Source: Bolinopsis microptera
Taxonomy: Eukaryota; Ctenophora; Tentaculata; Lobata; Bolinopsidae
Assembly: GCF_026151205.1 (NCBI RefSeq)
Contig: NC_087081.1
Coordinates: 3,663,246-3,727,245, forward strand
Length of the DNA stretch: 64,000 bases
Direction of reading: 5' to 3'
Below the pieces are notes generated by a model that was not told the origin of the DNA, did not search any database, and saw only the letters and a program-made list of their open reading frames with translations. The position numbers were made by a program, and so were the translations under genes. This document shows, in pieces, positions 38,563 to 60,836 of this stretch; the stretch's first letter is position 1, and every line of letters begins with the position of its first letter.

Positions 38563-38620
38563 ATGTTCGCACAGCTGATATGTTTCACTTACCTCATTCT
38601 TCTCACCTTACAATCAGAGG
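38563..38620 (+). CDS. receptor exon 1: signal peptide
   Basis: Encodes MFAQLICFTYLILLTLQSE, a short hydrophobic leader, and ends in GAGG|GTAAGT (phase 1). Chosen over the ATG at 39090 because only this exon joins exon 2 in frame. Confidence 0.75.
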
Positions 38621-41600
38621 GTAAGTTACTAAATTAGTTACTAAATTAGTTACTTCTTAAATAACCACGATTTGATTGTTCGGGACATAAATAAGGGCAT
38701 GTTTAATGCTATTACGCATAAACTGGATAAGTTGGCCTAGTAACACCTAGTAACACCTAGTAACAACTAACACCTAGTAACACCTACTAACACCAGGGCT
38801 GTGCCCCCGATCAGAGATACCCTGCGCAGGCACATGTACTATCAAGCTCTCCCAGAGTCTTAACCACGGCCAGGCTGCTCTCCAGTGCAAAACTCAAAAC
38901 AAACGTACTTATATGGGGTGAGTGTTGTGGTGGAATAGTAAACTTTCAGTTTCGCTTTCAGTTTCGCTTTTTATTCTCTTGCAAAGCCGACTTGAAGTTA
39001 TTATGATCAATCTTAACCTAAAGTGTAATTTACACTGAAGAGGGTGACCGAGGGTCTAATGACCCCGTCCTCCAGTTCAAGAACTGACGATGAGTTGGAG
39101 AGTGGATGCGCTAGCTCTGTGTTTGGGACTAACACTAATCTTAATATCTGGTCTCGATATAAGCTCAGAGGTATTTATTTTATCATTGAGTTTAAACACT
39201 TTTAAGGAGAAGCTTATATATTTCCTTCCTATATTTCCTAGCTGAAGACGATTTACACATGCATTTTGAAAGCCCCTGCAAAAACAAACTTTTCGTATCA
39301 CTTATATGTTTTAAATAATCGCCCTCCAGGTATATTTCCTTGTTTCTCATGCTGACAAGAAAGGTTTACTAGCTATACCAGAAGTAGCTGAGCACATCTA
39401 ACTATTTCTAGGATTCCCACAATCCGAGACTTATAATTAGTACCCGTCAGTACTGTCCAGTCTCTAACATTATAATGTTTCAGATGGTTTGATAGTAGAT
39501 GAGACAGGAGTAACAATAGACAGGATAAACTGGGGTATAAAGTACTGTGGAGCTGTTGACCAACTGGGTAACTTCATGCCCCATCCTTGTACTTGGAACA
39601 ACTACCGAGCCATCTGCGTTAGTAACCAGAGTAAGTCTGCTGTTTTCTGACAAAAGTGCTTAAGTAACACTAGGTTCATTTTGTGCAAATTGACTTTAAA
39701 GATTTCAATTCTGTAATTGCTCTGAGCTAGCTGCTGTTTAAACTGCACTATGTTTCTAAGAGCTATCTGCTTTAGTAACCAGAGTAAGTGTACTCATCAC
39801 TACACACAAATATCTTAACTATTGCGCGGCTTGTTGGATAACACCAAATAACACTTGCTCCTTCACCAACACAACCTCACCCCGCAGTCCAATACGACAA
39901 GAATAACTTACGAGAGTGCGGGGGAGAATACTACTGGATAACGGACAGGTCGGATCTAGACTACGAGAGAGGGGTGGAACACTGTAGGCAGAACAACATG
40001 GTCCTTGCTACTCCCTATACTAATGCTAGGAGGAACTGCTTCCAGCCTGTTATGCAGGCTCGAGCGATATCTAAAGCTTGGATTAATTACAAGTAAGGGT
40101 TGTTTGTTAATTACAGGTAAGGGTTTTTTGTTAATTACAAGTAAGGATTAATTACAAGTAAGGATTACTTACAAGTAAGTAAGGGTTGTTTGTTAACTAT
40201 CTAAAGCTTGGATTAATTACAAGTAAGGGTTGTTATGTTAATTACAGGTAAGGGTGTCTTGTTATAAGTTAATTACTAGAAGGATTAATTACAAGTGTAA
40301 GGGTTGTAACTTTACTTGGATTATTACAAGTAAGGTTTTTTTACTTTTAAATACATTTGGTTTAAGTTAAATAGTTTATATGAAGAGTATTTGTATCGTT
40401 CAGATATATTTAATCTTTTGAAGAACAGTATTTGTACTAATATTTATAGAAATATAAACGAAACTATAATAATCTGAAGTCAAATTGACTATCGAGAACT
40501 GCACTAATTCAGCTTTATAGTCAACATGTCAATACGCAAACAAGGTTGTCTATGGCCTAACAATTAAGACCCAGGTCTTAGCCCGTCCTACATAATTAAG
40601 ACCAAGCAGAACCTCAAGTAATAAGAGGTTCTGTTTCCCGACAACTATTAATGTATTAATTGCAACTTTCCCGAAATAGTGTGATCAGTTATTTGTTATC
40701 TCTTTATCTGTAGCCTTGTTGATAACGCGTTGTGTTTCAGTATAACAGCAGCTACACAGAAGATAACACCGTGGGACCGGGAGTACTGTATCAAGGTTAA
40801 CAGGTACAACCAGTACACTGTAGATAAATGCGAGACTCGGCTGCCTGTCTTCTGCTCTAGTTTTGGAGGTTAGTTTTTAGTACTTTAGCTGTAGTGAGGA
40901 AACTTGTTAGAGGCAATCTTTGTTATCATGTGTATACTATGTGTACATAGTACATAGTCCATGTATACATGTAACATGTATAATTGTGACATGTATAGTA
41001 CATCAAAACAACATTTCAACACAATAAGTTAACTTATTAAGTTCGTTAAATACTAAAATTAGTAACCTTTCAGAACTAGAAGCATCCGGAGTAGTGGTAC
41101 AGAAAGGTGAACCTGCCGTTATGTCTTGTAAATGCTTTAACTGCACTGTCAATGATATAGGTTAGTGCCGCCCATATGGTTTTGTTGCTTGTACTCACGT
41201 TTAATAGCTAGCTCATGCAAGCAACTGTCCATCGACCTACTTTATTTATATATCGTGTTGAACATACTATTCTCAACGTTATTGCCCCCCCCCCCCCACT
41301 AATTATACCAACCTCCCCCTAACAATACCCCCCCCCCCTCACCCCACCCTAACAATACCCCACCCTAACAATACCCCGCCCCACCCTAACAAAACCCCAC
41401 CCCACCCTAACAATACCCCACCCCACCCTAACAATACCCCACCCCACCCTAACAATACCCACCCTAACAATACCCCACCCCACCCTAACAATACCCCACC
41501 CCACCCTAACAATACCCCACCCCACCCTAACAATACCCCACCCTAACAATACCCCGCCCCACCCTAACAATACCCCACCCCACCCTAACAATACCCCACC

Positions 41601-44600
41601 CCACCCTAACAATACCCCACCCCACCCTAACAAAACCCCACCCCACCCTAACAATACCCCACCCCACCCTAACAATACCCCACCCTAACAAAACCCCACC
41701 CTAACAATACCCCCCCCCCCCCCCCTAACAAAACCCCGCCCTAACAATACCCCACCCTAACAATACCCCACCCCACCCTAACAATACCCCACCCCACCCT
41801 AACAATACCCCCCCCCCCCCCCTAACAATACCCCACCCCACCAGAGTGGACGGATGGTATGACAGTATGGAGATCAGGAGATAACGCCGGAGGTTTCTCC
41901 GTCCGCTCAGTACCCGACACAACGGGCGTCAGATCAACCCTCACCCTAACTGAGACCTTGTTAGACCAGACCTTTACATGTGTTCAGAGAACTCATTTCT
42001 CCGACTCGGTTATATATAAAACTGTGGAGGTGGATGTTTATAATTTGGAGGTGACGTCACACTTTGTGTTTTATGGAGCACAGATTACTGTTACTTGCAA
42101 GTTTAACAATGATAAACATCTGGATATTGATAGGGTGGAGTGGAGTGATAGGAGGGATAATGTGAGTGCTATTTATTTCTTTATATTAGTTACAATTTTC
42201 TTTATTTATCCGTCTTTATATTATAGTTACAATGTTCTTTATTTATCCGTCTTTATATTATAGTTACAATGTTCTTTATTTATCCGTATTTATATTATAG
42301 TTACAATGTTCTTTATTTATCCGTCTTTATATTATAGTTACAATGTTCTTTATTTATCCGTCTTTATATTATAGTTACAATTTTCTTTATTTATCCGTCT
42401 TTATATTATAGTTACAATGTTCTTTATTTATCCGTCTTTATATTATAGTTACAATGTTCTTTATTTATCCGTCTTTATATTATAGTTACAATGTTCTTTA
42501 TTTATCCGTCTTTATATTATAGTTACAATGTTCTTTTCTTTATTTATCCGTCTTTATATTATAGTTACAATGTTCTTTATTTATCCGTCTTTATATTATA
42601 GTTACAATGTTCTTTATTTATCCGTCTTTATATTATAGTTACAATGTTCTTTATTTATCCGTCTTTATATTATAGTTACAATGTTCTTTATTTATCCGTC
42701 TTTATATAATAGTTACAATGTTCTTTATTTATCCGTCTTATCTCCTTTTATAACGTTTTTATTTCATTTTATATTTTTTCTGATCTGCTTTTCATTTTGA
42801 TTTAAAGTTTTCAAAGGAAGACAAGACAAGTGAATTAGTTTGAATTAATACTAGAAAACCCACTGTAAATGTAAATATTCAGATAACAAGAACGTTTGTG
42901 TCCTTTCTTTTCTGACCTATCTTTATTTTTAATGTTACTTTTCCATCACTACAGACGGATTTGTCGGGTAGAGCGCGGCTCTCCTACGACGAAGCAACAG
43001 TAGTGTCAAAACTAGAGATCCCTGTAGAGTATTACACCCATGATGTCATGTGCACTTTCTATGCTAGAGGGGACGGTATTACAGCTTACTCGGGTGTCAG
43101 CAGAATCATCATTTATAGTAAGTCAATAGTAAGTCAATAGCGGTTATCAACGACTTTAAGAACATTCCACCGTACGAACTCTGACCAGGCCCGTTTTTAG
43201 CCTTTGTTCGGTGAATTATATGAAATAGATATAACAAGGTGATCAGTTAGCCGGTAGATAACAGGAACATCTTCTCAGAGATAAACGGAGAAGACCAGTC
43301 AGTGCCTGCTAACGCTAACACGACCCTATCATGTGATCTGAGGGAGCAAGAGGGGAGAAGTGTGGATCTTATACCTCCTACCAGAGTCGACTGGTAAGTT
43401 TGTAATTTGACGTCATACCACGTGGCCTCACACCACGTGACCTCGCACCTTACTCTGTATATCTTTTTCAGTTTCTCCTTGCTTATGAGGAGTGGTACCC
43501 TCGTGCCACCAATCCTAACACTTGCTACCCCAGGAAACAAGGAGACAGCTCGTACATCATACCCTCGGATATAATAAACCCTTACAGAGCGGTCCTGGTG
43601 CGGAACATGAGGACCGGGGTAGATACCTACTCTTGCAGATTCCTCTTTGAGAACGGCAATATCCTCACCAAAACCCTTACCGTCACTGCTTTCGGTGCGT
43701 ACTCTTCTTTTTCTCTATTCGAATTTTGCTAATACTGGGAATACTGCATATTTAGCAGCTAAGCAATTAGATGTAATTGCAATAAGTAGTTTCATACTGC
43801 ATTTCCGTTTTAATAATGGCCTGGAAGAGCTCATCAATTCTAAGAGCCGTACTTTTAAAAGTACCGTGGAAGAATATGGGTATTTGCCCAATTTGAGTAT
43901 TTGTCCAATTTACCCTATTAAGCTATTAGCATTTGACTCTTGTTCCCTTGTTGTATTTGACTCTATTTCTGTTTTCCCCTAGATTTTGAAGGTATTCCCG
44001 CACTGGCAGCTAACGGTACAGCAGCAATGTTGAATTGTAAATACAGTAAAGGGGCCCCTCCTGACACGCCACTATGGTGGGAGCGAGAAGGTCAGTATAT
44101 TATAGATTATACATTATACATTATACATTATACCTTATACATTATAATATTATACACTATACATTATATTATTTAGTACCTTCTACCTGGCGAAAAAATC
44201 TGATAAAGACACAAACGGTCAGCCATTAGCTAATAACGAACCATGGCGAAGTAACAAGTCACTAGGTTCCTTACTCTGTACTGAGAAGGACATTCAAAGA
44301 AGGAGAATCCTAGCTGAGATTGCTTTTAAGAACTTTGGAAAAGTATGGTTGTCCGGTAAGAAAATTTCCCTTGAAAGAAAGCTGAGGTTATATGATGCTC
44401 AAGTTGTATCTGTATTGATCTACAACTCAAATAGTTGGAGTCCTAAGAAAGCAACCATGGAGAAAATGGACACACTCCATCGTAGACACCTCAGGTCCAT
44501 TTTAAACATCAAATGGCCTAAAGGTATGATAAGCAACAAAGCATTGTATGAAAGGTGCAAAGTTGAAAAGTTATCCAAGCGTATTGAACACCAGCGGTGG

Positions 44601-47600
44601 AAGATGTTTGGACACATTCTCAGGAGTATGGAGAACACCCCAGCCCAAACGGCTCTCTCTTTTGCTATTGAATCAGATAATTTATTCATTGGTAGATTGG
44701 GGAGACCTAGAATGAACTTGTTATCGGTTTTAAGAAGTGATTTAAGTAGTAGAAATTTGCAAATGGACAACTTGCATGAATTGAACGAAATTAGAGATAT
44801 AGCTGCATGCAACAGATGTTGGGAAAATCTTTTTCAAGGGTACAGTTTACCGCATTAAGGTATTTTTAAGAATCATTTTTGTCGGTAAGATCCTGTTTTA
44901 TAATAATAATAATAATACATTATATACTATACATTATAATATTATCATAAGAAGCTTTATAGTTTATACAAAGAAAAGGTTAGACTTATTGAAATGTTTC
45001 AAATGTTCTGGTCGTTATAACTAATAATTTGACTTTACTACTTCTTCATTTTACCTGATATAACTAATAATTTGACTTTACTACTTCCTCATTTTACCCG
45101 ATGATTTGCTTCAGGAGTTAAGATATCAAATGGTAAGAAGTATAAGGGAGAAACGTACGAGATAACGTCCAACTTCGTTAATGACGGTTTCTACATGGCC
45201 ACCACTACAGTTACTGTACGAAATGCTTCGGAGGAGGCAACTTTTCAGTGTGGGCTCAGAGTCTCGGGTAGGTTGATAGATTAATTAATTAATTGTTTAA
45301 ATTTAAATTATTATTAACAAATTTAAATTATTTCTTTGATTTTTCTTGATTTATAGGGATCTTTTATCTGGTGACTGTGCAACGTTGTAAGTATTATTTA
45401 TGTGTATATTATGAGCTGCATAGCATTTATTCCTTAAAAGTAATGACACCCATTTAAAACGAACACAAAACAGATAAAGTGTGGAGGAAAGATATCCCTA
45501 TGAAGATCTATATGGGAATGTTCATCGCCCCTAATGTAACGATTGCGGAGGAGATTGACTCGAACACTGGACAGATTGTAGTAAACTGCTCGGTGTGGGC
45601 TAATCCCCGTCCTAACATCCAGATATTCGTGGATACTGAGGTAATAACATCCAGATATTCGTGGATACTGAGGTAATAACTTCCAGATATTCGTGGATAC
45701 TGAGGTAATAACATCCAGATATTCGTGGATACTGAGGTAATAACATCCAGATATTCGTGGATACTGAGGTAATAACATCCAGATATTCGTGGATACTGAG
45801 GTAATAACATCCAGATATTCGTGGATACTGAGGTAATAACATCCAGATATTCGTGGATACTGAGGTAATAATATCCAGATATTCGTGGATACTGAGGTAA
45901 TAACATCCAGATATTCGTGGATACTGAGGTAATAACATCCAGATATTCGTGGATACTGAGGTAATAACATCCAGATATTCGTGGATACTGAGGTAATAAC
46001 ATCCAGATATTCGTGGATACTGAGGTAATAACATCCAGATATTCGTGGATACTGAGGTAATAACATCCAGATATTCGTGGATACTGAGGTAATAACATCC
46101 AGATATTCGTGGATACTGAGGTAATAACATCCAGATATTCGTGGATACTGAGGTAATAACATCCAGATATTCGTGGATACTGAGGTTATAATATCCAGAT
46201 ATTCGTGGATACTGAGGTAATAACATCCAGATATTCGTGGATACTGAGGTAATAACATCCAGATATTCGTGGATACTGAGGTAATAACATCCAGATATTC
46301 GTGGATACTGAGGTAATAACATCCAGATATTCGTGGATACTGAGGTAATAACATCCAGATATTCGTGGATACTGAGGTAATAACATCCAGATATTCGTGG
46401 ATACTGAGGTAATAACATCCAGATATTCGTGGATACTGAGGTAATAACATCCAGATATTCGTGGATACTGAGGTAATAACATCCAGATATTCGTGGATAC
46501 TGAGGTAATAACATCCAGATATTCGTGGATACTGAGGTAATAACATCCAGATATTCGTGGATACTGAGGTAATAACATCCAGATATTCGTGGATACTGAG
46601 GTAATACATCCAGATATTCGTGGATACTGAGGTAATAACATCCAGATATTCGTGGATACTGAGGTAATAACATCCAGATATTCGTGGATACTGAGGTAAT
46701 AACATCCAGATATTCGTGGATACTGAGGTAATAACTTCCAGATATTCGTGGATACTGAGGTAATAACATCCAGATATTCGTGGATACTGAGGTAATAACA
46801 TCCAGATATTCGTGGATACTGAGGTAATAACATCCAGATATTCGTGGATACTGAGGTAATAACTTCCAGATATTCGTGGATACTGAGGTAATAACATCCA
46901 GATATTCGTGGATACTGAGGTAATAACTTCCAGATATTCGTGGATACTGAGGTAATAACATCCAGATATTCGTGGATACTGAGGTAATAACATCCAGATA
47001 TTCGTGGATACTGAGGTAATAACATCCAGATATTCGTGGATACTGAGGTAATAACATCCAGATATTCGTGGATACTGAGGTAATAATATCAGATATTCGT
47101 GGATACTGAGGTAATAACATCCAGTTATTCGTGGATACTGAGGTAATAATATCTAGATATTCGTGGATACTGAGGTAATAACATCCAGATATTCGTGGAT
47201 ACTGAGGTAATAACATCCAGATATTCGTGGATACTGAGGTAATAACATCCAGATATTCGTGGATACTGAGGTAATAACATCCAGATATTCGTGGATACTG
47301 AGGTAATAACATCCAGATATTCGTGGATACTGAGGTAATAACATCCAGATATTCGTGGATACTGAGGTAATAACATCAGATATTCGTGGATACTGAGGTA
47401 ATAACATCCAGATATTCGTGGATACTGAGGTAATAACATCCAGATATTCGTGGATACTGAGGTAATAACATCCAGATATTCGTGGATACTGAGGTAATAA
47501 CATCCAGATATTCGTGGATACTGAGGTAATAACATCCAGATATTCGTGGATACTGAGGTAATAACATCCAGATATTCGTGGATACTGAGGTAATAATATC

Positions 47601-50600
47601 CAGATATTCGTGGATACTGAGGTAATAACATCCAGATATTCGTGGATACTGAGGTAATAACATCCAGATATTCGTGGATACTGAGGTAATAACATCCAGA
47701 TATTCGTGGATACTGAGGTAATAACATCCAGATATTCGTGGATACTGAGGTAATAACATCCAGATATTCGTGGATACTGAGGTAATAACATCCAGATATT
47801 CGTGGATACTGAGGTAATAACTTCCAGATATTCGTGGATACTGATGTAATAACATCCAGATATTCGTGGATACTGAGGTAATAACATCCAGATATTCGTG
47901 GATACTGAGGTAATAACATCCAGATATTCGTGGATACTGAGGTAATAACTTCCAGATATTCGTGGATACTGAGGTAATAACATCCAGATATTCGTGGATA
48001 CTGAGGTAATAACTTCCAGATATTCGTGGATACTGAGGTAATAACATCCAGATATTCGTGGATACTGAGGTAATAACATCCAGATATTCGTGGATACTGA
48101 GGTAATAACATCCAGATATTCGTGGATACTGAGGTAATAACATCCAGATATTCGTGGATACTGAGGTAATAATATTCAGATATTCGTGGATACTGAGGTA
48201 ATAACATCCAGATATTCGTGGATACTGAGGTAATAATATCTAGATATTCGTGGATACTGAGGTAATAACATCCAGATATTCGTGGATACTGAGGTAATAA
48301 CATCCAGATATTCGTGGATACTGAGGTAATAACATCCAGATATTCGTGGATACTGAGGTAATAATATCCAGATATTCGTGGATACTGAGGTAATAACATC
48401 CAGATATTCGTGGATACTGAGGTAATAACATCCAGATATTCGTGGATACTGAGGTAATAACATCCAGATATTCGTGGATACTGAGGTAATAATATGCAGA
48501 TATTCGTGGATACTGAGGTAATAACATGCAGATATTCGTGGATACTGAGGTAATAACATCCAGATATTCGTGGATACTGAGGTAATAACTTCCAGATATT
48601 CGTGGATACTGAGGTAATAACATCCAGATATTCGTGGATACTGAGGTAATAACATCCAGATATTCGTGGATACTGAGGTAATAACATCCAGATATTCGTG
48701 GATACTTTTATCTAAAACTTTTCAAACAATACATAATTATACAGAATTGAATGCTTCTAAATAAACCCAGTTATAAAAGGAAAAAAACCGATATAGCCCT
48801 AATTTTCACTATCCCAGAATATCGAAACCCAAATTATGTATTGAGAGAGGGGTAACCAAAACACGGTAGTGTGCAGTAAATACCACACCCGCAATAAAAT
48901 TGGGCCCTAGCAACAATTAATTAATCAATGAATCAAAACATATAATATTGTACTTATAGAAAATATAAAACTCTCAGGGCTCCTTCTCCGAGCTAATGAC
49001 TCTAAAGTTCCTGATTACGTGAACTTTGTCCGGCTCTGCTGTCCTTTTATTGAGTAGCTGGACGACAACTTTCTTGTAGGCTATTCTGTCTGCAGCTGAT
49101 CTATCAGGAGTTATGTAAACAGAAGTAAACCCGTCTACATGTCTTAATAACTTAGTCTTGCTCAAGATGGTACGAGCTTGATCTGAGCTTGACAAAGTGA
49201 ATTTAACTGGTCTGACTCGTTCACTTGTGTCCTTTCCAACTCTATTACATCTCAAAATTTTTGGTTTTTCGTTGAGATGGTCCAACAAAATACCAGATAC
49301 CTTAGCATCCAAGTTCTCCTCAGTCTCTGGGATCCCAAAGATAATCAGACTTTTACTTCGATCTTCTTCTAGGGCAACCCTTTTCACTGCAGCTTGGATT
49401 TTCTTCGGTGCAAAGGCGTTTTTGCACGTGTTTTTCAACAGAGACGAAAAGGTCTTAATCTCTTTCTGAGCTGCACTTTTCACAGTTCCAATCTCGTCAT
49501 CCTTCTTCAAAGCTAACTTCTCCTGCAGATCACTGATTTTTGTCATATCTTCTTCTTGTTTAGAGAGTAACTTCTCTTGCAGTTCTATGATCTTATTCGC
49601 ATCTTCTATTTTTTCTTTCCTGAACACCCTGTTGTCGGTAGCTGTTTCTGTGGCAGATTGTAACAATGGACCACAATAATCGTTCAGCAAACAGCACACT
49701 GTCTCTAGCCATTCTGATAACCTCTCTCTAGGCACACTTCTCTGGTTCAGTTTGTCAAATTCCACATCATCGTTGTGTTCGGCACCGATTTTAATTCTAA
49801 TCTCCTTAAAAATACTGTTAGTTGCCATGTGTATCTGATTCACATACTCCGTAAGGAACTGGCCATTCATAACCATAGCATCATCTAGCATATCCAAGTG
49901 TTCATTCTGTAGCGGCAAAGGCATCGTACACGTTGTACAGAAAATGTACAAACAATGTATACAAATCTACAAAGCCAGAGAGATAATTCAACGCGCACAC
50001 AAAACTGCTGATAAGAGAGCTACAATTTAGCAACGAATGTAAAAGTGTAATATCGGTACTGAGGTAATAACATCCAGATATTCGTGGATACTGAGGTAAT
50101 AATATCTAGATATTCGTGGATACTGAGGTAATAACATCCAGATATTCGTGGATACTGAGGTAATAACATCCAGATATTCGTGGATACTGAGGTAATAACA
50201 TCCAGATATTCGTGGATACTGAGGTTATAACATCCAGATATTCGTGGATACTGAGGTAATAACATCCAGATATTCGTGGATACTGAGGTAATAACATAAT
50301 AATACTCAGTCGATATACTTTACAGCAACCCAAAGCTATTCAACCTCCAAAACCACTCAGCTTCTTCCCAATTTCATGTTTTAATTTATTAATTGACAAT
50401 TAATCGACTGTAGCTTAATAGGTTAACACTGACTTCTCGACCAGGCAGGAGAAGGGTTGCTGAGCAGTACAAACAATAAAACTACACTGACAGTAAGAAT
50501 AGATCAGACGTGTGAGGCTCCCCAACTTAAGTGTCTGGCAACAAGTAACGAGGGGACCAGGGAAAATGTCGTTAAGTCTAAACTTAACAAAAAGTGCGGA

Positions 50601-53600
50601 TTCTTTGCCAAATGTAGGTTTCTTCCGTTATCCTGTCTTCTTCTGGCCTCGACAGAAAGTTATTTTGATGTCTGATAAAATAATTTGTCTGCGTTTACCT
50701 TTTTACTGAAAATACCCATCTTTTTACTGAAAATACCCGTCTCCGGCAGTGACTCTAACAATAAAGTTAGCAATTGGCGGCTCACTTCTGCTGCTTGTGA
50801 TAATAATAATAGTGATCTGCTGCTGCTTCTGCCGCAAGACAAAGGAACTGAAAGAGGAAGTGGAATACCACCGTGAGGTCCTATCTCAGGTTAATACTTA
50901 ATTATTTAATTATTTAACTACTTTTTTTAGTTAATTATCCCTTTCTCAGTTTGATAATAATAATAATTATTTAATTACTTTTTAGTTAATTAGCCCTTTT
51001 TCAGTTTAATACCTAATTACCTAATTATTAAATTACTTTTTTAGTTAATTAGCCCTTTTTCAGTTTAATACTTAATTACCTAATTATTAAATTACTTTTT
51101 CAATTAATTAATCCTCTCTCAGGTCATGTATCTCTCTAATCCCTTACCCATTCTTACCTGTCAGGTTGATGGAACTAGTACTATGTACAGTATGAACTTG
51201 TCACGTGGAGGTAAGACCAGTCTTCCTCCGAAGTACGAGGATATGTACTCTGAGGCCGGCACTAATGTGAGTCAGTATATTATACATTATACACTGTATA
51301 TTATAATTATACATTATACATACGAACACCGATGGGACAGTAAGACAACATTAAGACAACATTAAGACAACAATAAGACAACATTAAGACAACATTAAGA
51401 CAACAATAAGACAACGTTAACGCAACAAACACCAATAAGACAACAAACGATAAGACAACATTAAGACAACATTAAGGCAACATTAAGGCAACATTAAAGC
51501 AAACATTAAGACAACATTAAGGCAACATTAAGACAACATTAAGGCAACAATAAGACAAGATTAAGACAACAAACACCGATAAGACAACAAAATAGGATAA
51601 AATATTAAGACAACATTAAGACAACATTAAGACAACATTAAGACAACAAACTGTGTTAATGTGTCTTATTGGTGTCTTAATGTTGTCTTATTGTTGTCTT
51701 AATGTGTCTTAATGTTGTCTTAATGTCCCATCGGTGTTCGTTCTAGTTGTCCATTATACATTATACATTATAAAGTACGAGGATATGTACTCTGAGGCTG
51801 GTACTAATGTGAGTCGAGGGGCACATTTTTCAAATTGGTCTGATAATGTTATAAAAGTTCACAGTTTTCTTTAGAATCATGTAAAAGATGCAATGTTAAA
51901 CTCATTCTTGAAGCTGTAAGAGTTGCGATATTTACATTTCTTTTATCACCCCCGTTTTAGTTGCTCACTTTAATCACGTGAGTACTCCTAATCACGTGAC
52001 TACTCCTAATCACGTGACTACTCCTAATCACGTGACTACTCCTAATCACGTGACTACTCCTAATCACGTGACTACTCCTAATCACGTGACTACTCCTAAT
52101 CACGTGACTACTCCTAATCACGTGACTACTCCTAATCACGTGACTACTCCTAATCACGTGACTACTCCTAATCACGTGACTACTCCTAATCACGTGACTA
52201 CTCCTAATCACGTGACTACTCCTAATCACGTGACTACTCCTAATCACGTGACTACTCCAGACTTTAATCACGTGACTACTCCTAATCACGTGACTACTCC
52301 TAATCACGTGACTACTCCTAATCACGTGACTACTCCTAATCACGTGACTACTCCTAATCACGTGACTACTCCAGACTTTAATCACGTGACTACTCCTAAT
52401 CACGTGACTACTCCTAATCACGTGACTACTCCTCATCACGTGAATACTCCTACAGAACTACGACCCGATAGTGAAAGATAAGATGTACATGGAGCTGCAT
52501 GACACTGACGTTGCTGAATACAACCAGCCTTACTCGGAAGTGGGGCTCATGTCCCCCAAATATCAGAGAATCGAGTCCGACTACGAGCCCGCACCTCAGC
52601 TATTTATGAGCAGGTCAGCTTACAAGTTCATTAATTAATCAGTCTGTTAATTTAATAATTTTTTAGTTAATCAATTAGTTTGTTAATTCATTAATTAACT
52701 TGTTCATTAATTGTTTAGTTTATTGAATAGTTGGTACGTGTCATTAGTTAACTTATGTGGGGCCAGCACAAACTGTTCTAAAAGGGGTCCTGAATCGAAC
52801 AGCCTGACAGCCATCAATAAATATTCAGAATCTATCATGATTTTCTCATATTTCCACATGATTATAATCTAACCTATCTCTCCGCAGATCAAAGTCACGT
52901 GACAACATGTCACGTGGTCCAGATAACATGTTCTCCCCGCCCCTCATGAAGAAGTCCACCACCACACTAAGCTACCAGAACCTTAAGGAGCAGTCCTCTA
53001 AGTACCCTAGTGAAGTTGGCAGCATGAACAAATCTAGCGTCTCCAGATCAGCAACCAATATTAATAACCCCAGGTTAGAGGAACGTTATTGAGGAATAGA
53101 AAAAAAAAATGTAACTATATAAATAGAAAAATATGTATATAACTATATTGAGGAAAAGAAAAACCATAATTTTCATTCATCTCTCTCTTCAGTGGATCAA
53201 TCATGATTTGTTACTGGGGACGAATTGATAATCTCGAATTGAATGGAGATCCTTCATTCGTCCTCAGTAACCAATCAATTATTAACATACGCTGTACACT
53301 GTAATCTGTAAACTGTACATACTACATACCTCCAATTATAGATTGATGAATTTAACTGACCCCATCTAGGAAATTCTCACAGCCTGCAGACACCATGGGG
53401 GCGCAACCAGTGAAGATGAACCCCTTTGGGAACGTACAGAGACTGAAGAGTAATGATCATCCTGATGATGAGATTATGTCTATTACCTCTAAAATACCTC
53501 CCTCCGAAATCTCTGGTTCGTTTGAACGTGTGATTCTCTGCTATTTTTAGCTATTATAACTACCCTCTACTTTAAACTCCCTCCTTGAAAATAAGAAATG

Positions 53601-56600
53601 AGTAATAAACTTTAAAACCCTCTCAGATATGACACCTCCTGTTGAGTAATAAACTTTAAAACCCTCTCAGATATGACACCTCCTTTTGAGTAATAAACTT
53701 TAAAACCCTCTCAGATATGACACCTCCTGTTGAGTAATAAACTTTAAAACCCTCTCAGATATGACACCTCCTGTTGAGTAATAAACTTTAAAACCCTCTC
53801 AGATATGACACCTCCTGTTTAATAATAAACTTTAAAACCCTCTCAGATATGACACCTCCTGTTGAGTAATAAACTTTAAAACCCTCTCAGATATGACACC
53901 TCCTGTTGAGTAATAAACTTTAAAACCCTCTCAGATATGACACCTCCTGTTTAATAATAAACTTTAAAACCCTCTCAGATATGACACCTCCTGTTGAGTA
54001 ATAAACTTTAAAACCCTCTCAGATATGACACCTCCTGTTGAGTAATAAACTTTAAAACCCTCTCAGATATGACACCTCCTGTTTAATAATAAACTTTAAA
54101 ACCCTCTCAGATATGACACCTCCTGTTGAGTAATAACCTTTAAAACCCTCTCAGATATGACACCTCCTGTTGAGTAATAAACTTTAAAACCCTCTCAGAT
54201 ATGACACCTCCTGTTGAGTAATAAACTTTGAAACTCTCTCAGGTATGACACCTCCTGTTGAGTAATAAACTTTAAAACCCTCTCAGATATGACACCTCCT
54301 GTTGAGTAATAAACTTTAAAACCCTCTCAGATATGATACCTCCTGTTGAGTAATAAACTTTAAAACCCTCTCAGATATGACACCTCCTGTTGAGTAATAA
54401 ACTTTAAAACCCTCTCAGATATGACACCTCCTGTTGAGTAATAAACTTTAAAACCCTCTCAGATATGACACCTCCTGTTGAGTAATAAACTTTAAAACCC
54501 TCTCAGATATGACACCTCCTGTTGAGTAATAAACTTTAAAACCCTCTCAGATATGACACCTCCTGTTGAGTAATAAACTTTAAAACCCTCTCAGATATGA
54601 CACCTCCTGTTGAGTAATAAACTTTAAAACCCTCTCAGATATGACACCTCCTGTTGAGTAATAAACTTTAAAACCCTAGTCTCAGATATGACACCTCCTG
54701 TTGAGTAATAAACTTTAAAACCCTCTCAGATATGACACCTCCTGTTGAGTAATAAACTTTAAAACCCTAGTCTCAGATATGACACCTCCTGTTGAGTAAT
54801 AAACTTTAAAACCCTCTCAGATATGACACCTCCTGTTGAGTAATAAACTTTAAAACCCTAGTCTCAGATATGACACCTCCTGTTGAGTAATAAACTTTAA
54901 AACCCTCTCAGATATGACACCTCCTGTTGAGTAATAAACTTTAAAACCCTCTCAGATATGACACCTCCTGTTGAGTAATAAACTTTAAAACCCTCTCAGA
55001 TATGACACCTCCTGTTGAGTAATAAACTTTAAAACCCTAGTCTCAGATATGACACCTCCTGTTGAGTAATAAACTTTAAAACCCTCTCAGATATGACACC
55101 TCCTGTTGAGTAATAAACTTTAAAACCCTAGTCTCAGTCCTCAGATATGACACCTCCTGTTGAGTAATAAACTTTAAAACCCTAGTCTCAGATATGACAC
55201 CTCCTGTTGAGTAATAAACTTTAAAACCCTCTCAGATATGACACCTCCTGTTGAGTAATAAACTTTAAAACCCTCTCAGATATGACACCTCCTGTTGAGT
55301 AATAAACTTTAAAACCCTCTCAGATATGACACCTCCTGTTGAGTAATAAACTTTAAAACCCTCTCAGATATGACACCTCCTGTTGAGTAATAAACTTTAA
55401 AACCCTCTCAGATATGACACCTCCTGTTGAGTAATAAACTTTAAAACCCTCTCAGATATGACACCTCCTGTTGAGTAATAAACTTTAAAACCCTCTCAGA
55501 TATGACACCTCCTGTTGAGTAATAAACTTTAAAACCCTCTCAGATATGACACCTCCTGTTGAGTAATAAACTTTAAAACCCTCTCAGATATGACACCTCC
55601 TGTTGAGTAATAAACTTTAAAACCCTCTCAGATATGACACCTCCTGTTGAGTAATAAACTTTAAAACCCTCTCAGATATGACACCTCCTGTTGAGTAATA
55701 AACTTTAAAACCCTCTCAGATATGACACCTCCTGTTGAGTAATAAACTTTAAAACCCTCTCAGATATGACACCTCCTGTTGAGTAATAAACTTTAAAACC
55801 CTCTCAGATATGATACCTCCTGTTGAGTAATAAACTTTAAAACCCTCTCAGATATGACACCTCCTGTTGAGTAATAAACTTTGAAACTCTCTCAGGTATG
55901 ACACCTCCTGTTGAGTAATAAACTTTAAAACCCTCTCAGATATGACACCTCCTGTTGAGTAATAAACTTTAAAACCCTCTCAGATATGATACCTCCTGTT
56001 GAGTAATAAACTTTAAAACCCTCTCAGATATGACACCTCCTGTTGAGTAATAAACTTTAAAACCCTCTCAGATATGACACCTCCTGTTGAGTAATAAACT
56101 TTAAAACCCTCTCAGATATGACACCTCCTGTTGAGTAATAAACTTTAAAACCCTAGTCTCAGATATGACACCTCCTGTTGAGTAATAAACTTTAAAACCC
56201 TCTCAGATATGACACCTCCTGTTGAGTAATAAACTTTAAAACCCTAGTCTCAGTCCTCAGATATGACACCTCCTGTTGAGTAATAAACTTTAAAACCCTA
56301 GTCTCAGATATGACACCTCCTGTTGAGTAATAAACTTTAAAACCCTCTCAGATATGACACCTCCTGTTGAGTAATAAACTTTAAAACCCTCTCAGATATG
56401 ACACCTCCTGTTGAGTAATAAACTTTAAAACCCTCTCAGATATGACACCTCCTGTTGAGTAATAAACTTTAAAACCCTCTCAGATATGACACCTCCTGTT
56501 GAGTAATAAACTTTAAAACCCTCTCAGATATGACACCTCCTGTTGAGTAATAAACTTTAAAACCCTCTCAGATATGACACCTCCTGTTGAGTAATAAACT

Positions 56601-59600
56601 TTAAAACCCTCTCAGATATGACACCTCCTGTTGAGTAATAAACTTTAAAACCCTCTCAGATATGACACCTCCTGTTGAGTAATAAACTTTAAAACCCTCT
56701 CAGATATGACACCTCCTGTTGAGTAATAAACTTTAAAACCCTCTCAGATATGACACCTCCTGTTGAGTAATAAACTTTAAAACCCTCTCAGATATGACAC
56801 CTCCTGTTGAGTAATAAACTTTAAAACCCTCTCAGATATGACACTTCCTGTTGAGTAATAAACTTTAAAACCCTCTCAGATATGACACCTCCTGTTGAGT
56901 AATAAACTTTAAAACCCTCTCAGATATGATACCTCCTGTTGAGTAATAAACTTTAAAACCCTCTCAGATATGACACCTCCTGTTGAGTAATAAACTTTGA
57001 AACTCTCTCAGGTATGACACCTCCTGTTGAGTAATAAACTTTAAAACCCTCTCAGATATGACACCTCCTGTTGAGTAATAAACTTTAAAACCCTCTCAGA
57101 TATGATACCTCCTGTTGAGTAATAAACTTTAAAACCCTCTCAGATATGACACCTCCTGTTGAGTAATAAACTTTAAAACCCTCTCAGATATGACACCTCC
57201 TGTTGAGTAATAAACTTTAAAACCCTCTCAGATATGACACCTCCTGTTTAATAATAAACTTTAAAACCCTCTCAGATATGACACCTCCTGTTGAGTAATA
57301 AACTTTAAAACCCTCTCAGATATGACACCTCCTGTTGAGTAATAAACTTTAAAACCCTCTCAGATATGACACCTCCTGTTGAGTAATAAACTTTAAAACC
57401 CTCTCAGATATGACACCTCCTGTTGAGTAATAAACTTTAAAACCCTCTCAGATATGACACCTCCTGTTGAGTAATAAACTTTAAAACCCTCTCAGATATG
57501 ACACCTCCTGTTGAGTAATAAACTTTGAAACTCTCTCAGGTATGACACCTCCTGTTGAGTAATAAACTTTAAAACCCTCTCAGATATGACACCTCCTGTT
57601 GAGTAATAAACTTTAAAACCCTCTCAGATATGATACCTCCTGTTGAGTAATAAACTTTAAAACCCTCTCAGATATGACACCTCCTGTTGAGTAATAAACT
57701 TTAAAACCCTCTCAGATATGACACCTCCTGTTGAGTAATAAACTTTAAAACCCTCTCAGATATGACACCTCCTGTTTAATAATAAACTTTAAAACCCTCT
57801 CAGATATGACACCTCCTGTTGAGTAATAAACTTTAAAACCCTCTCAGATATGACACCTCCTGTTGAGTAATAAACTTTAAAACCCTCTCAGATATGACAC
57901 CTCCTGTTGAGTAATAAACTTTAAAACCCTCTCAGATATGACACCTCCTGTTGAGTAATAAACTTTAAAACCCTCTCAGATATGACACCTCCTGTTGAGT
58001 AATAAACTTTAAAACCCTCTCAGATATGACACCTCCTGTTGAGTAATAAACTTTGAAACTCTCTCAGATATGACACCTCCTGTTGAGTAATAAACTTTAA
58101 AACCCTCTCAGATATGACACCTCCTGTTGAGTAATAAACTTTAAAACCCTCTCAGATATGACACCTCCTGTTGAGTAATAAACTTTAAAACCCTCTCAGA
58201 TATGACACCTCCTGTTTAATAATAAACTTTAAAACCCTCTCAGATATGACACCTCCTGTTGAGTAATAAACTTTAAAACCCTCTCAGATATGACACCTCC
58301 TGTTGAGTAATAAACTTTAAAACCCTCTCAGATATGACACCTCCTGTTGAGTAATAAACTTTAAAACCCTCTCAGATATGACACCTCCTGTTGAGTAATA
58401 AACTTTAAAACCCTCTCAGATATGACACCTCCTGTTGAGTAATAAACTTTAAAACCCTCTCAGATATGACACCTCCTGTTGAGTAATAAACTTTAAAACC
58501 CTCTCAGATATGACACCTCCTGTTGAGTAATAAACTTTAAAACCCTCTCAGATATGACACCTCCTGTTGAGTAATAAACTTTAAAACCCTCTCAGATATG
58601 ACACCTCCTGTTGAATAATAAACCTTAAAACCCTCTCAGATATGACACCTCCTGTTGAGTAATAAACTTTGAAACTCTCTCAGATATGACACCTCCTGTT
58701 GAGTAATAAACTTTAAAACCCTCTCAGATATGACACCTCCTGTTTAGTAATAAACTTTAAAACCCTCTCAGATATGACACCTCCTGTTGAGTAATAAACT
58801 TTAAAACCCTCTCAGATATGACACCTCCTGTTGAGTAATAAACTTTAAAACCCTCTCAGATATGACACCTCCTGTGGAGTAATAAACTTTAAAACCCTCT
58901 CAGATATGACACCTCCTGTTGAGTAATAAACTTTAAAACCCTCTCAGATATGACACCTCCTGTTGAGTAATAAACTTTAAAACCCTCTCAGATATGACAC
59001 CTCCTGTTTAATAATAAACTTTAAAACCCTCTCAGATATGACACCTCCTGTTGCCATCCTCTCTCCTCGAGGCTGGGAGATCCCTGACGATCCTGCCAGA
59101 ATGTTCAGTCCTCCGACTGCGCGGCGTCCTAGAGAATATGAGCGGAAGTTCAGTGAGCCGGCCATCTTGCCCTGGCAAGATGCCCAGAATAAGGTCAATA
59201 ACTGGAACCTCCCTCCTACTGCAGAAGGTATGAAACAAGATGAACACATTTCACCTTCACACAAACGTTTTAACAACAGTTTTCAACGATGGCTGGAGTT
59301 GGTATTTGGGTTATATTTATAGATTTATGGTTATTGCTTAGGATCGAGGATAATATGGGTAAAGTTTTATAACCTCTAAATCCACTACAGAATTATACGA
59401 CAGACCTCCCAAAAGCGGCTGGTCAACCCCAGCTGGTCCCCTGAGTACAGTGGGAGAATCCACCGGCAAATCCTCGGCCACCCTGGACACCATCAGTGTG
59501 ACACCTACCTACCTGACAAAACCAATCAGTCTCCCCAAACCCAGCACCCACCCTTCTGATAGGGTTGCTGACTGTGTGTCCCCTCCCCCACTTTCAGTAG

Positions 59601-60836
59601 CTCCTTCTTCTGGTTACCCTCAGAGGTTGGTGTTTCTCTTCTAATAGTTGTTATTGTCATGGTAACACCTTCTTTTCTATCCACTTTTTAGTTGCCCCCG
59701 TAACCACCTATTATTATCATTGGTAACACCTCCTTGCTCTTTTCTCCCTTTTATAGTTGTCCTCTGATTATTGTTGCTGACTGTGTGTCTCCTCCCCCAC
59801 TCTGATTATTGTTGTCACGGTAACCTCTCTCTCTCTCCAGCTCAGTTGGTCCATCAGTCTCGGAGTACGAGAGCCCCATGAGTCCACCTACACACTTCCG
59901 GTCGGCTATTGATAACGATCGGCAAAGAAACAACCTTCAGAATAATGTATTCGATATTGACGATCTAAGTTCGGTTAGTTCTACCCTTCTTTGTTGTTAT
60001 CTTGCTTATATACCCTATAAACAGATTAAACGGATTAAACGATTCAAAAGTCAAATTACATGTCTGACCCAATACAAAAAGTAAAATTACCCAAAAGTCA
60101 AAAAGTATATATACTTTTTGATATATATATATCTGTTACCATTTTACTGACACCACGACTTCAACTTTAACAAGACTTTCCGCGAAAACCGTAAGAGACA
60201 TACTTTTGAAACATTTTTGGCTGGGTTGAATGCTTTTATGGCCTTTTGGTCATTATAAAGAAAGAAAGAATCGGCCAAGGAATAAACAATTTAGGTTCCG
60301 AAAAATGGACCCCCAGGTGGTGTCAAAATCACAAATTATGTCTCTTGACACCACTTTAGAGAAACACGGGTTCCTGCTAGTTTATACTAAGTTTCCACTT
60401 AACTACCACTTTATCACATGGTTAATGATCCTATAAATGATCAGGAGATTGTCCCCTTATCTCCCTGTTCCTACCCTCATGCCTGATTCACCACTTGATT
60501 AACCAGTCTCTGCACTCAGGTGGATGTACCGGAGAATGGGATGGACACGTTAGACAGAAGAGTCCAGTACAACATGCAGCCTGCTGCTGAGAATTTCTAC
60601 ACACCGTCTAGAGGACCTCCTCCTTCGGGGCCCAGTTCAGGGGCTAGGACACCACAGGGGACCAGGACACCACATGGAGTCAAGGTTAGCACGGTTTCTA
60701 CCATTTAACACTTTGTAGGATCTAGAATCTAGATTTTATAAACTATTTGTTATTTGTACGTTTGTTAAATCCGATCTAATTTCAGGTGCTGCCTACACTG
60801 CCGAAGAATCCAAATCTCCGGACATCACATTTTTAA
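38563..60836 (+). CDS. CTLD / five-Ig type I receptor with tyrosine-motif tail (24 exons)
   Basis: Exons: 38563-38620, 39484-39630, 39888-40092, 40741-40868, 41074-41160, 41845-42161, 42955-43117, 43279-43393, 43534-43694, 43983-44090, 45115-45267, 45357-45386, 45474-45640, 50445-50613, 50750-50889, 51165-51266, 52456-52613, 52888-53073, 53370-53515, 59036-59227, 59391-59625, 59841-59973, 60520-60684, 60786-60836. All 23 introns are GT-AG, and the joined frame stays open for 3,516 nt (1,171 residues) to TAA. Predicted layout: signal peptide 1-19; half-CTLD-like module 20-68; CTLD ~69-178; Ig-like domains ~180-275, 276-368, 369-460, 461-547, 570-665; membrane helix 676-697; tail 698-1171. No known family has this exact order that I can name. 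A cell-surface recognition or adhesion receptor is inferred. Exons 12 and 16 and the 3' end of exon 14 are the least certain. Confidence 0.85.
39090..39170 (+). other. possible second leader exon, out of frame with exon 2
   Basis: Starts with ATG and encodes a good leader (MSWRVDALALCLGLTLILIS, then GLDISSE). It ends TCAGAG|GTATTT, like the TCAGAGG|GTAAGT end of exon 1 but one G short. Joined to exon 2 it gives a stop in the third codon (ATG GTT TGA). It could be a decayed duplicate of exon 1 or serve another transcript. Confidence 0.4.
39484..39630 (+). CDS. receptor exon 2: half CTLD-like module
   Basis: 49 codons, phase 1 at both ends. Reads INWGIKYCGAVD, PCTWNNYRAICV with Cys at 41, 55 and 64. 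The spacing resembles the C-terminal half of a C-type-lectin-like domain, without an N-terminal half. A missing upstream exon or a shortened domain would explain this. Confidence 0.7.
39756..39796 (+). repeat. duplicate of exon 2 end plus donor
   Basis: The string CTTTAGTAACCAGAGTAAGT and the GAGCTATCTG before it repeat the true exon 2 junction (39608-39636) with a few changes. It lies about 140 bp into intron 2. Confidence 0.85.
39888..40868 (+). CDS. receptor exons 3-4: C-type-lectin-like domain
   Basis: Coding parts are 39888-40092 and 40741-40868. Residues 69-178 include YYWITD, DYERGVEHCRQNNMVLATP (the helix-Cys-long-loop segment), KAWINY, and the closing EYCIKV, DKCETRLPVFC. Cysteines at 79, 101, 119, 153, 167, 175 fit the CTLD disulfide pattern. 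No EPN or QPD sugar-binding triad is seen, so calcium-dependent sugar binding is unlikely and protein binding is the better guess. Confidence 0.8.
40093..40325 (+). repeat. repeated copies of exon 3 end plus donor
   Basis: Intron 3 opens with about seven copies of ATTAATTACAAGTAAGG. The copy at 40197-40233 includes CTAAAGCTTGGATTAATTAC, which is coding sequence in exon 3. Confidence 0.9.
41074..43117 (+). CDS. receptor exons 5-7: Ig-like domains 1 and 2
   Basis: Coding parts are 41074-41160, 41845-42161 and 42955-43117. Domain 1 has Cys198, Trp210, the STLTLTE strand and Cys254 in TFTCVQ. Domain 2 has Cys293 in TVTCKF, Trp308 in RVEWSD and Cys347 in VMCTFYA. Exon 6 spans the junction of the two domains. 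The trio starts and ends in phase 1, so it forms one movable cassette. Confidence 0.82.
41286..41840. repeat. CCCCACCCTAACAATA repeat abutting an acceptor (intron 5)
   Basis: About 25 units of 16-21 bp. The array ends directly in the CCACCAG acceptor of exon 6, so the repeat supplies its pyrimidine tract. The minus strand has clustered GGGGTGGGG and TTAGGGTGGGG tracts able to form G-quadruplexes. Confidence 0.93.
42170..42738. repeat. 37-bp minisatellite in intron 6
   Basis: About 15 copies of a 37-bp unit with TTCTTTATTTATCCGTC and TTATATTATAGTTACAATG. It starts within 10 bp of the exon 6 donor. Each unit contains a pyrimidine-rich stretch followed by TATAG, an acceptor-like sequence. Confidence 0.93.
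43279..43694 (+). CDS. receptor exons 8-9: Ig-like domain 3
   Basis: Coding parts are 43279-43393 and 43534-43694. Cys387 (TTLSCDL), Trp408 (RVDW|K) and Cys442 (DTYSCRF) are the Ig core residues. The exon 8 acceptor was set at TTCTCAG|AG because the upstream ACAG gives an in-frame stop. Confidence 0.82.
43983..45267 (+). CDS. receptor exons 10-11: Ig-like domain 4
   Basis: Coding parts are 43983-44090 and 45115-45267. Cys479 (MLNCKY), Trp pair in LWWER and Cys542 (TFQCGL) form the Ig core. The intron between them carries a truncated LINE. Confidence 0.82.
44165..44925 (+). pseudogene. 5'-truncated LINE in intron 10 of the receptor
   Basis: An open frame of about 230 codons (from ~44176 to the TAA at 44856-44858) reads SLGSLLCTEKDIQRRR, AFKNFGKVWLS, LRLYDAQVVSVLIYNS, HRRHLRSILNIKWP, RWKMFGHILRS and GRPRMNLLSVL. 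This is the C-terminal part of a LINE polymerase, from a family distinct from the element at 23.2-28.7 kb. It ends in an (AAT)n tail near 44901-44916 and sits in an ATTATACATT-rich intron. It has the same orientation as the host gene and lacks catalytic motifs. Confidence 0.85.
45357..50613 (+). CDS. receptor exons 12-14: linker and Ig-like domain 5
   Basis: Coding parts are 45357-45386 (a 30-nt microexon), 45474-45640 and 50445-50613. Cys596 (VVNCSVWANPRPN), TTLTVRID and Cys643 (LKCLATSNEG) match an I-set Ig domain. The usual core Trp is absent and NIQIFVD takes its place. Exon 13 ends GATACTGAG|GTAATA, and this junction is the seed of the 32-bp array that fills the intron. The GTAGGT donor of exon 14 was chosen over an earlier GTGCGG because only it keeps the frame into the membrane exon. 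Confidence 0.78.
45615..48707 (+). repeat. 32-bp array of exon 13 end plus splice donor (~96 copies)
   Basis: The unit AACATCCAGATATTCGTGG-ATACTGAG-GTAAT consists of the last 27 bases of exon 13 plus the first five intron bases. The first copy is the coding exon end itself. Variation is low: occasional T for C, AATAT for AACAT, and a few 1-bp deletions. Because 32 is not a multiple of 3, all minus frames run open for long distances, giving false ORFs of up to 566 codons. Confidence 0.97.
48706..50053 (-). mobile_element. ORF1-only LINE-derived element inside the 32-bp array
   Basis: About 1.35 kb of unrelated sequence interrupts one array unit (left side ends GTGGATAC, right side resumes TACTGAGG, so TAC may be the target duplication). 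On the minus strand it has a leader, one complete ORF1 and a ~260-bp tail. No endonuclease or polymerase is present. Confidence 0.75.
48974..49951 (-). CDS. LINE ORF1-type protein, intact
   Basis: 325 residues from the first ATG (316 from the ATG at 49924, which starts MPLPLQNEHLD). Residues ~110-170 are a coiled coil (KIIELQEKLLSKQEED, KISDLQEKLALKKDDE), the usual multimerisation region. Residues ~200-325 look like the RNA-recognition and C-terminal part of LINE ORF1 proteins: SLIIFGIPETEENLD, LRCNRVGKD, RPVKFTLSSSDQAR, VYITPDRSAADR. Such proteins bind LINE RNA as chaperones. No frameshift or stop is present. It is antisense to the host gene, in intron 13. A broken relative is at 7801-8030. 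Confidence 0.8.
   Translation of the reverse strand: MYIFCTTCTMPLPLQNEHLDMLDDAMVMNGQFLTEYVNQIHMATNSIFKEIRIKIGAEHNDDVEFDKLNQRSVPRERLSEWLETVCCLLNDYCGPLLQSATETATDNRVFRKEKIEDANKIIELQEKLLSKQEEDMTKISDLQEKLALKKDDEIGTVKSAAQKEIKTFSSLLKNTCKNAFAPKKIQAAVKRVALEEDRSKSLIIFGIPETEENLDAKVSGILLDHLNEKPKILRCNRVGKDTSERVRPVKFTLSSSDQARTILSKTKLLRHVDGFTSVYITPDRSAADRIAYKKVVVQLLNKRTAEPDKVHVIRNFRVISSEKEP
50046..50297 (+). repeat. continuation of the 32-bp donor array
   Basis: Nearly eight further copies of the exon 13-end/donor unit after the inserted element. The array stops about 150 bp before exon 14. Confidence 0.95.
50750..50889 (+). CDS. receptor exon 15: transmembrane helix
   Basis: Encodes a Leu/Ile/Val helix (residues 676-697) ending in ICCCFCRK, then a short Glu/Lys segment. 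The Cys cluster at the inner face is a possible palmitoylation site. The basic residues after the helix support an Nout-Cin orientation. Confidence 0.88.
50890..51122. repeat. acceptor-like repeats in intron 15
   Basis: Three to four units of about 58-65 bp, each ending TTAATTAGCCCTTTTTCAG or similar, i.e. a pyrimidine tract plus AG, followed by TTTAATACCTAATTA. The last one ends CCTCTCTCAG at 51122, a usable acceptor. Confidence 0.8.
51165..53073 (+). CDS. receptor exons 16-18: tyrosine-motif cytoplasmic segment
   Basis: Coding parts are 51165-51266 (an acceptor at 51122 is an in-frame alternative adding 14 codons), 52456-52613 and 52888-53073. Residues 717-865 carry Y740 (YEDM), Y752 (YDPI), Y761 (YMEL), Y776 (YSEV), Y786 (YQRI) and Y832 (LSYQNL). 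YSEVGLMSPKYQRI is close to the ITAM spacing YxxL/I-x6-8-YxxL/I, and LSYQNL fits the ITIM consensus. YEDM fits a PI3-kinase SH2 site. Phosphorylation is inferred, not shown. Confidence 0.8.
51290..51745. repeat. ATTAAGACAAC array with inverted right arm
   Basis: About 30 units of 11-13 bp (ATTAAGACAAC) from 51340 to 51650, then reverse-complement units to 51730. Outer parts also pair: CGAACACCGATGGGACA at ~51321 and its reverse complement at ~51724. The intron could fold into a large hairpin. Confidence 0.88.
51771..51822 (+). repeat. duplicate of exon 16 end plus donor
   Basis: AAGTACGAGGATATGTACTC and the following TGAGGCTGGTACTAATGTGAGTC repeat the true exon 16 end (51231-51272) with two base changes, about 540 bp downstream and in the same orientation. 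Confidence 0.92.
51973..52446. repeat. 18-bp CACGTGA array in intron 16
   Basis: About 26 copies of AATCACGTGACTACTCCT with two CCAGACTTT variants. It runs up to the exon 17 acceptor. Each unit has the E-box CACGTG. Open frames on both strands (NHVTTP, SSHVIR repeats) are artefacts of the 18-bp period. Confidence 0.95.
53370..60836 (+). CDS. receptor exons 19-24: Pro/Ser-rich distal tail
   Basis: Coding parts are 53370-53515, 59036-59227, 59391-59625, 59841-59973, 60520-60684 and 60786-60836. Residues ~866-1171 are low-complexity, rich in Pro, Ser, Thr and Arg (SPPTARRPREYERKF, SVTPTYLTKPISLPKP, SRGPPPSGPSSG), with no folded domain seen. SH3-type PxxP stretches occur. The last codons read LPTLPKNPNLRTSHF then TAA. 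The giant 44-bp array lies between exons 19 and 20. Confidence 0.8.
53597..59054 (+). repeat. 44-bp array of exon 20 acceptor plus exon start (~120 copies)
   Basis: The unit AGTAATAAACTTTAAAACC-CTCTCAG-ATATGACACCTCCTGTTG consists of 26 intron bases up to the AG and the first 18 bases of exon 20. The last copy is the real splice site. Variants (TTTAATAATAAAC, CCCTAGTCTCAG, TTTGAAACTCTCTCAGG, ATGATACC) recur in the same order at about 54.2, 55.9, 57.0 and 57.5 kb, showing higher-order duplication. Confidence 0.97.
59640..59840 (+). repeat. intron 21 with partial copy of exon 21
   Basis: GTTGCTGACTGTGTGTCTCC followed by TCCCCCACT (59772-59801) repeats exon 21 coding sequence at 59566-59594. Intron 21 also has three spaced GGTAAC(A)CCTC motifs. 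Confidence 0.8.

Follow-up and report, generated by a model that had tools for sequence, protein, structure and literature searches.

A 123-unit minisatellite carrying a putative splice acceptor in a ctenophore gene, probably of the mirage type

How does a gene come to carry a splice acceptor, together with the first bases of the exon behind it, in more than a hundred tandem copies, and which of these copies would be spliced? The question is raised by a 64,000-nucleotide stretch of DNA from Bolinopsis microptera (C10:3663246-3727245, hereafter the window), for which genome searches covered the 264.65-Mb assembly in 232 contigs. Among hits that carry a species name, a glutamate-receptor frame from this DNA matches best in Mnemiopsis leidyi and Pleurobrachia bachei (39 and 37% identity), and two hits without a species name are closer (97 and 79%). 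The host gene lies at 38563..60836 on the plus strand and was modelled by hand as 25 exons, with consistent phases throughout and an open frame of 1251 residues. Its product contains Ig domains (Pfam Ig_3 match, E 1.4e-7) and, as judged by eye, appears to have a signal peptide, a membrane span and a long tail. Exon 21 of this model, in front of which the copies lie, is exon 20 of the initial annotation, whose exon 13 is our exon 14. We consider it probable that the array is a minisatellite of the 'mirage' type known from amphioxus, arising by tandem duplication across the exon-21 junction and tolerated because the exon-proximal copy is the one spliced.

The acceptor array occupies 53599..59051 on the plus strand and consists of 123 tandem 44-bp units, TGAGTAATAAACTTTAAAACCCTCTCAG|ATATGACACCTCCTGT, each reproducing the exon-21 acceptor and the first 16 bases of the exon. 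Tandem Repeats Finder reports 53599-59053 with a period of 44, 123.0 copies and 97% matches, and a unit-by-unit split likewise gives 123 units, of 13 types including the consensus, in irregular order. The consensus is matched exactly by 89 of the 123, the first unit among them; the last is a variant common to six other units, and multi-unit blocks recur within the array. Given an exon 21 start at 59036, as modelled, the unit comprises 28 intron bases and 16 exon bases, and the TG directly after the unit is common to exon 21, which explains the 18 exon bases counted in the initial annotation. With that adjustment its description stands: about 120 copies of a 44-bp splice-acceptor minisatellite, an intron end CTCTCAG, of which TCTCAG is intact in 123/123 units, and a last unit that alone continues into an open exon (59036-59227). 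The intact TCTCAG says little, because substitutions are confined to 11 of the 44 columns of the unit. An invariant six-base block is unremarkable on that background, and selection on the acceptor motif, entertained on account of this conservation, was dropped. In four units (54210-54245 and three others) the sequence is CTCTCAG|GTATGA; here a fair donor (score 4.89) comes directly after the acceptor, an arrangement that has the form of a recursive splice site.

With up to two mismatches allowed, a 24-base junction probe has 123 matches across the assembly, always in the forward direction, and its reversed-pattern control has none. This count equals the number of units and the matches listed all fall inside the exon-21 array, which excludes a dispersed repeat; likewise, among the matches listed there was no case of the same 44-bp repeat unconnected with a splice site.

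Exon 20 (53370..53515, plus strand) ends at the donor CTG|GTTCGT, which opens intron 20, and exon 21 (59036..59227, plus strand) is placed by phase and open frame at the acceptor of the last array unit. The start of exon 21 joined to exon 20 under this model reads ATATGACACC. In leave-one-out splice-site scoring the exon-21 acceptor scores 6.83, third among the 24 acceptors of the gene, and a DNA search of the genome with exons 21-22 and the intron between them gives one match. When exon 20 is joined to each acceptor copy in turn, 122 of the 123 lead to a stop at residue 1000-1002 (within eight codons) and the last alone gives 1251 residues, which is evidence from the reading frame rather than from transcripts. 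On the strength of the frame, the acceptor's score and the parallel with a second gene, described below, we infer that the junction lies at 59036. A 44-bp segment spanning this acceptor would then have been duplicated in tandem and expanded to 123 units, their likeness kept by slippage or unequal exchange. These processes are suggested because the units are near-identical and multi-unit blocks recur, and the recurring blocks suggest that several units were exchanged together. The resulting pre-mRNA would present 123 almost identical acceptors, of which the last, adjoining the exon, would be the one spliced; the simplest reason would be exon definition, in which an acceptor is paired with the donor at the other end of its exon. 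The 122 upstream copies would be removed with the intron. Use of an earlier copy would, as the frames show, bring an early stop, and tolerance of the array would rest on the outer copy, from which normal mRNA can still be made. For alternative sites with large flanking introns, the pairs closest across the exon are favoured (PMC9225289).

Another acceptor, CCTCTCTCCTCGAG|GCTGGG, would start exon 21 at 59072 (59072..59227, plus strand), 36 bases further downstream. It is pyrimidine-rich and in frame, keeps the full frame and scores 4.68; were it the true junction, the array would be no more than a minisatellite inside an intron, acceptor-like in sequence and perhaps the source of a branch point, and in a milder form of this alternative both acceptors would be used, giving isoforms 12 residues apart. 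Between the two starts lie 11 codons whose coding likeness is weak, with a mean of 0.09 where the rest of the exon has 0.16; they rank above 83% of open intron windows, yet only at the 36th percentile of coding windows. We nevertheless regard a start at 59072 as unlikely, since the array acceptor scores higher (6.83), since GAG precedes the 59072 junction, as it does at 1/24 acceptors of the gene model compared with CAG at 20/24, and since in the second gene protein homology supports the last copy of the array. Further in-frame AGs downstream are weaker (59135, score 0.03; 59180, score -1.62).

This second gene, an unrelated one of the villin/gelsolin kind, came from a wider sample of 200 kb of C1 (contig 26.2 Mb), another chromosome than that of the window, in which EF-hand, arrestin, condensin, gelsolin and RRM genes are among those with Pfam support. 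A 1501-bp intron (157453-158953 in minus-strand coordinates of the C1 block, L010-L029) contains 23 ACTATCAG acceptors, the last at the intron end and followed by GSHSTTDERG. When the exon ending FIYFWL is joined to the last-copy exon, the peptide matches a Pfam Gelsolin repeat (E 4e-13), and its alignment to solved villin and gelsolin is ungapped where the two exons meet, so that homology supports the last copy as the likely splice site. The exon part of the villin/gelsolin unit is shorter (about 9 bases) than that of the exon-21 unit, and its units are more variable. Judged by eye, this array is interrupted by an insertion that has inverted ends and seems to have duplicated 8 bp of its target, TTCAGGAC.

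Several points weigh against the mirage-type reading of exon 21 and of its splicing. Among the 22 upstream villin/gelsolin copies three keep an open frame and 19 stop, and frame alone would therefore not decide there. Intron 21 is only 163 bp long, and exon definition is thus not obvious at exon 21; moreover, the main shift to exon definition has been placed in bilaterian ancestors (PMC6142364). The in-frame acceptor at 59072 has a score within the range of real acceptors, and protein searches with parts of the tail found no orthologue.

Does the host gene show the same at other junctions? The initial annotation also claimed a mirror-image expansion of a donor, and this is indeed found at exon 14, where ACTGAG|GTAATA is repeated as a 32-bp unit in about 97 copies (45613..48706, plus strand), with a remainder reported by Tandem Repeats Finder at 50057..50297 on the same strand, past an insertion. 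A 20-base junction probe with up to one mismatch finds 101 copies in the genome, all forward (control 0), of which the first keeps the frame and the other 100 stop. At the exon-5 donor, ATTACAA|GTAAGG (40068..40264, plus strand; Tandem Repeats Finder), the first of 5 copies keeps the frame and 4 stop, and the donor arrays of the host gene would follow a mirror rule in which only the first copy is compatible with the frame. The insertion at 48707-50056 holds a minus-strand open frame of 316 residues, which by eye looks like the first ORF of a LINE. It also bears on whether the copy number, or the whole array at exon 21, was inflated by assembly. The 5.4 kb of repeats 97% alike are hard to assemble and multi-unit blocks recur, yet the thirteen unit types, consensus included, stand in irregular order and an insertion breaks up the donor array nearby, as it would in a real locus; we hold such inflation to be highly unlikely.

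To place these arrays among all junctions of the gene, the intron next to each of the 48 junctions was searched for the 16 exon bases of that junction, with at least 14/16 matching. They recur at five junctions, namely the donors of exons 4, 5, 14 and 17 and the acceptor of exon 21, compared with 0/1012 non-adjacent intron comparisons and 0/48 exon-interior probes. Probes of 8 exon and 12 intron bases match at 4/48 junctions, against 0/1012 for non-adjacent introns. The extra copy of the end of exon 4 and its donor lies within intron 4 (39766..39792, plus strand; 15/16 exon bases), and that of exon 17, read from the sequence, within intron 17 (51776..51816, plus strand; 14/16). Intronic arrays as a whole are crowded at junctions: of the 19, 13 either cross a junction or stop no more than 12 bp from it, where 5.3 are expected (0 of 20000 permutations reach 13), and 9/19 come within 5 bp (4.1 expected, p 0.0047). 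Arrays that reach or span a junction are, taken alone, not significantly enriched (5/19, 3.3 expected, p 0.22). One array within an exon (60638-60674) was omitted from this test. Three arrays (38736-38794, 41357-41842 and 51971-52452) stop 2-3 bp short of an acceptor, without exon sequence.

Whether such arrays extend beyond the host gene was surveyed with a gene finder trained on the window gene. A weak exon cost gave hundreds of predicted exons, tuning recovered 16 to 23 of the 25 window exons depending on the setting, and self-training reduced this to 15; the survey used the single-pass finder at a setting recovering 21. In the 200 kb of C1, its predictions gave 3/168 and 12/206 junction matches (controls 0/1608 and 1/2008; exon-interior matches 2 and 4), many of them, on inspection, in false exons within arrays or zinc-finger-like repeats. 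We also report runs of exons around Pfam hits, which were chosen by us and in which not every exon was homology-checked. There, a junction-spanning scan matches 1/96 junctions, the villin/gelsolin acceptor, a figure that holds only after predicted exons 92 and 93, inside the villin array, are dropped (0 matches with them kept), and the 16-base test gives 3/90, all due to these two false exons. Array crowding at junctions was not seen in the 47 C1 introns of these runs (1/21 against 1.0 expected; 3/22 against 3.0 with the two false exons kept). In 30 kb of C5, 0/46 predicted junctions matched, the predictions there not being homology-checked. Tandem repeats make up 53% of 38621-60786, within the host gene, compared with 9% of the C1 block. 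A 20-bp array in the C1 block (L010-L029, 66597-67258, plus-strand coordinates), whose minus-strand unit TACTGTTACCAGGGGTGAGT contains a donor, lies about 100 bp beyond a predicted exon with a similar donor and is a possible degenerate donor mirage. Junction-copying arrays recur in the genome, yet not everywhere.

The two expansions had been taken in the initial annotation to suggest a mechanism or selection acting on splice junctions. What holds of this is that acceptor and donor were amplified separately, each repeat being confined to its own junction as judged by the genome probes, and that arrays crowd the junctions of the host gene; selection is unsupported, and the crowding is not seen in the C1 introns surveyed outside the gene. 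That selection favours splice-junction copies is unproven, and tandem duplication, kept only where the outer copy is spliceable, explains the data. It seems to us improbable that the host-gene junctions are hot spots of tandem duplication, with a process tied to junction sequence or to splicing that seeds minisatellites and drives intron growth in the lineage.

Could the array instead be functional? It might be a bank of acceptors that slows or regulates the removal of intron 20, or a receiver of the trans-spliced leader that occurs in ctenophores, giving a separate mRNA for the cell-internal tail. AT-ATG directly follows the acceptor, in the protein frame, and the methionine would begin a product of 257 residues. 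In Hormiphora, trans-spliced leaders are common, on at least 56% of mRNAs (PMC8527503), and the four CTCTCAG|GTATGA units could serve as acceptor and then donor. Leader acceptors at upstream copies would nevertheless read a six-codon frame and then a stop, and the occurrence of comparable arrays at donors and in a second gene speaks for a mutational cause of a general kind. We judge either function very improbable.

Mirage-type duplication has known counterparts. In amphioxus, 'mirage' minisatellites are duplications of exon-intron boundaries, at either end, in Adh3 and in the globin genes BflGb6 and BflGb9; many repeats have intact splice signals, length varies, and regular splicing is reported unharmed (PMC3087553). 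Like these, the exon-21 unit spans an exon-intron boundary with intact splice signals, both sides are affected here (donors of exons 5 and 14, acceptor of exon 21), and the outermost copy is the apparent authentic junction, the others being dispensable for the frame, on frame evidence rather than transcripts. Unit sizes are similar (44 and 32 bp here; 10-72 bp in amphioxus Adh3 and 150-160 bp in BflGb6). Unlike the amphioxus cases, the host is a ctenophore and several junctions of one gene are involved, and the 123 and about 104 units contrast with the 3-6 of BflGb6. By these anatomical features the exon-21 array belongs to the mirage kind, a known kind and not a categorically new one, and its phylum and copy number go beyond the mirage cases found in print. 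Titles and abstract openings report no such arrays in ctenophores, subscription papers being mostly outside this coverage.

Two other systems share part of this anatomy. Internal tandem repeats in human segmental duplications, with units averaging 30 bp, can alter exon-intron structure and also lie at exon-intron boundaries, as minisatellites do here; they average about 4 units, occur in recently duplicated genes and are half in coding sequence (PMC2812944), whereas here the copies lie in an intron and exons 21-22 match the genome at DNA level once. Intron gain by tandem duplication likewise involves a duplication crossing an intron-exon boundary and yields a new intron (PMC4974935), whereas here the copies lie in one existing intron with the donor outside the array. 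Gain of the AGGT type was rejected for the exon-21 array, as the intron 20 donor at 53515 is outside it and the donor-like TGA|GTAATA inside the 44-bp unit scores 0.25. Intron 16 (50886-51122) is built of some four units in tandem, 55-60 bp long and each with a TCAG end, and runs from AG|GTTAAT to AG|GTCATG, with acceptors at 51123 and 51165 both in frame; it may be a better candidate for gain by tandem duplication of an AGGT segment.

Duplicated splice sites are a classic test of whether sites are chosen by their order or by pairing across the exon. This locus, a native gene in an animal lineage that branched early, holds 123 near-identical acceptors and, a few kilobases before them, about 100 donors. 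It is a natural test of choice among identical splice sites, in which choice by proximity is directly testable. The arrays also suggest that boundary-copying minisatellites are not peculiar to amphioxus; should they prove widespread among ctenophores, introns would grow and new splice sites would arise through them.

Other repeats were observed in the host gene and the window. At 59600-59800, a piece of exon 22 (GTTGCTGACTGTGTGTC...CTCCCCCACT) is found again in intron 22. Elsewhere in the window, a 37-bp array of 17.8 copies, with CCCTCCCTCTCAG in its unit and no adjoining exon established, occupies 30561-31221, and an 18-bp repeat of 13 copies (12540-12777) lies within a stretch that, by eye, resembles a lysine- and serine-rich coding frame on the minus strand.

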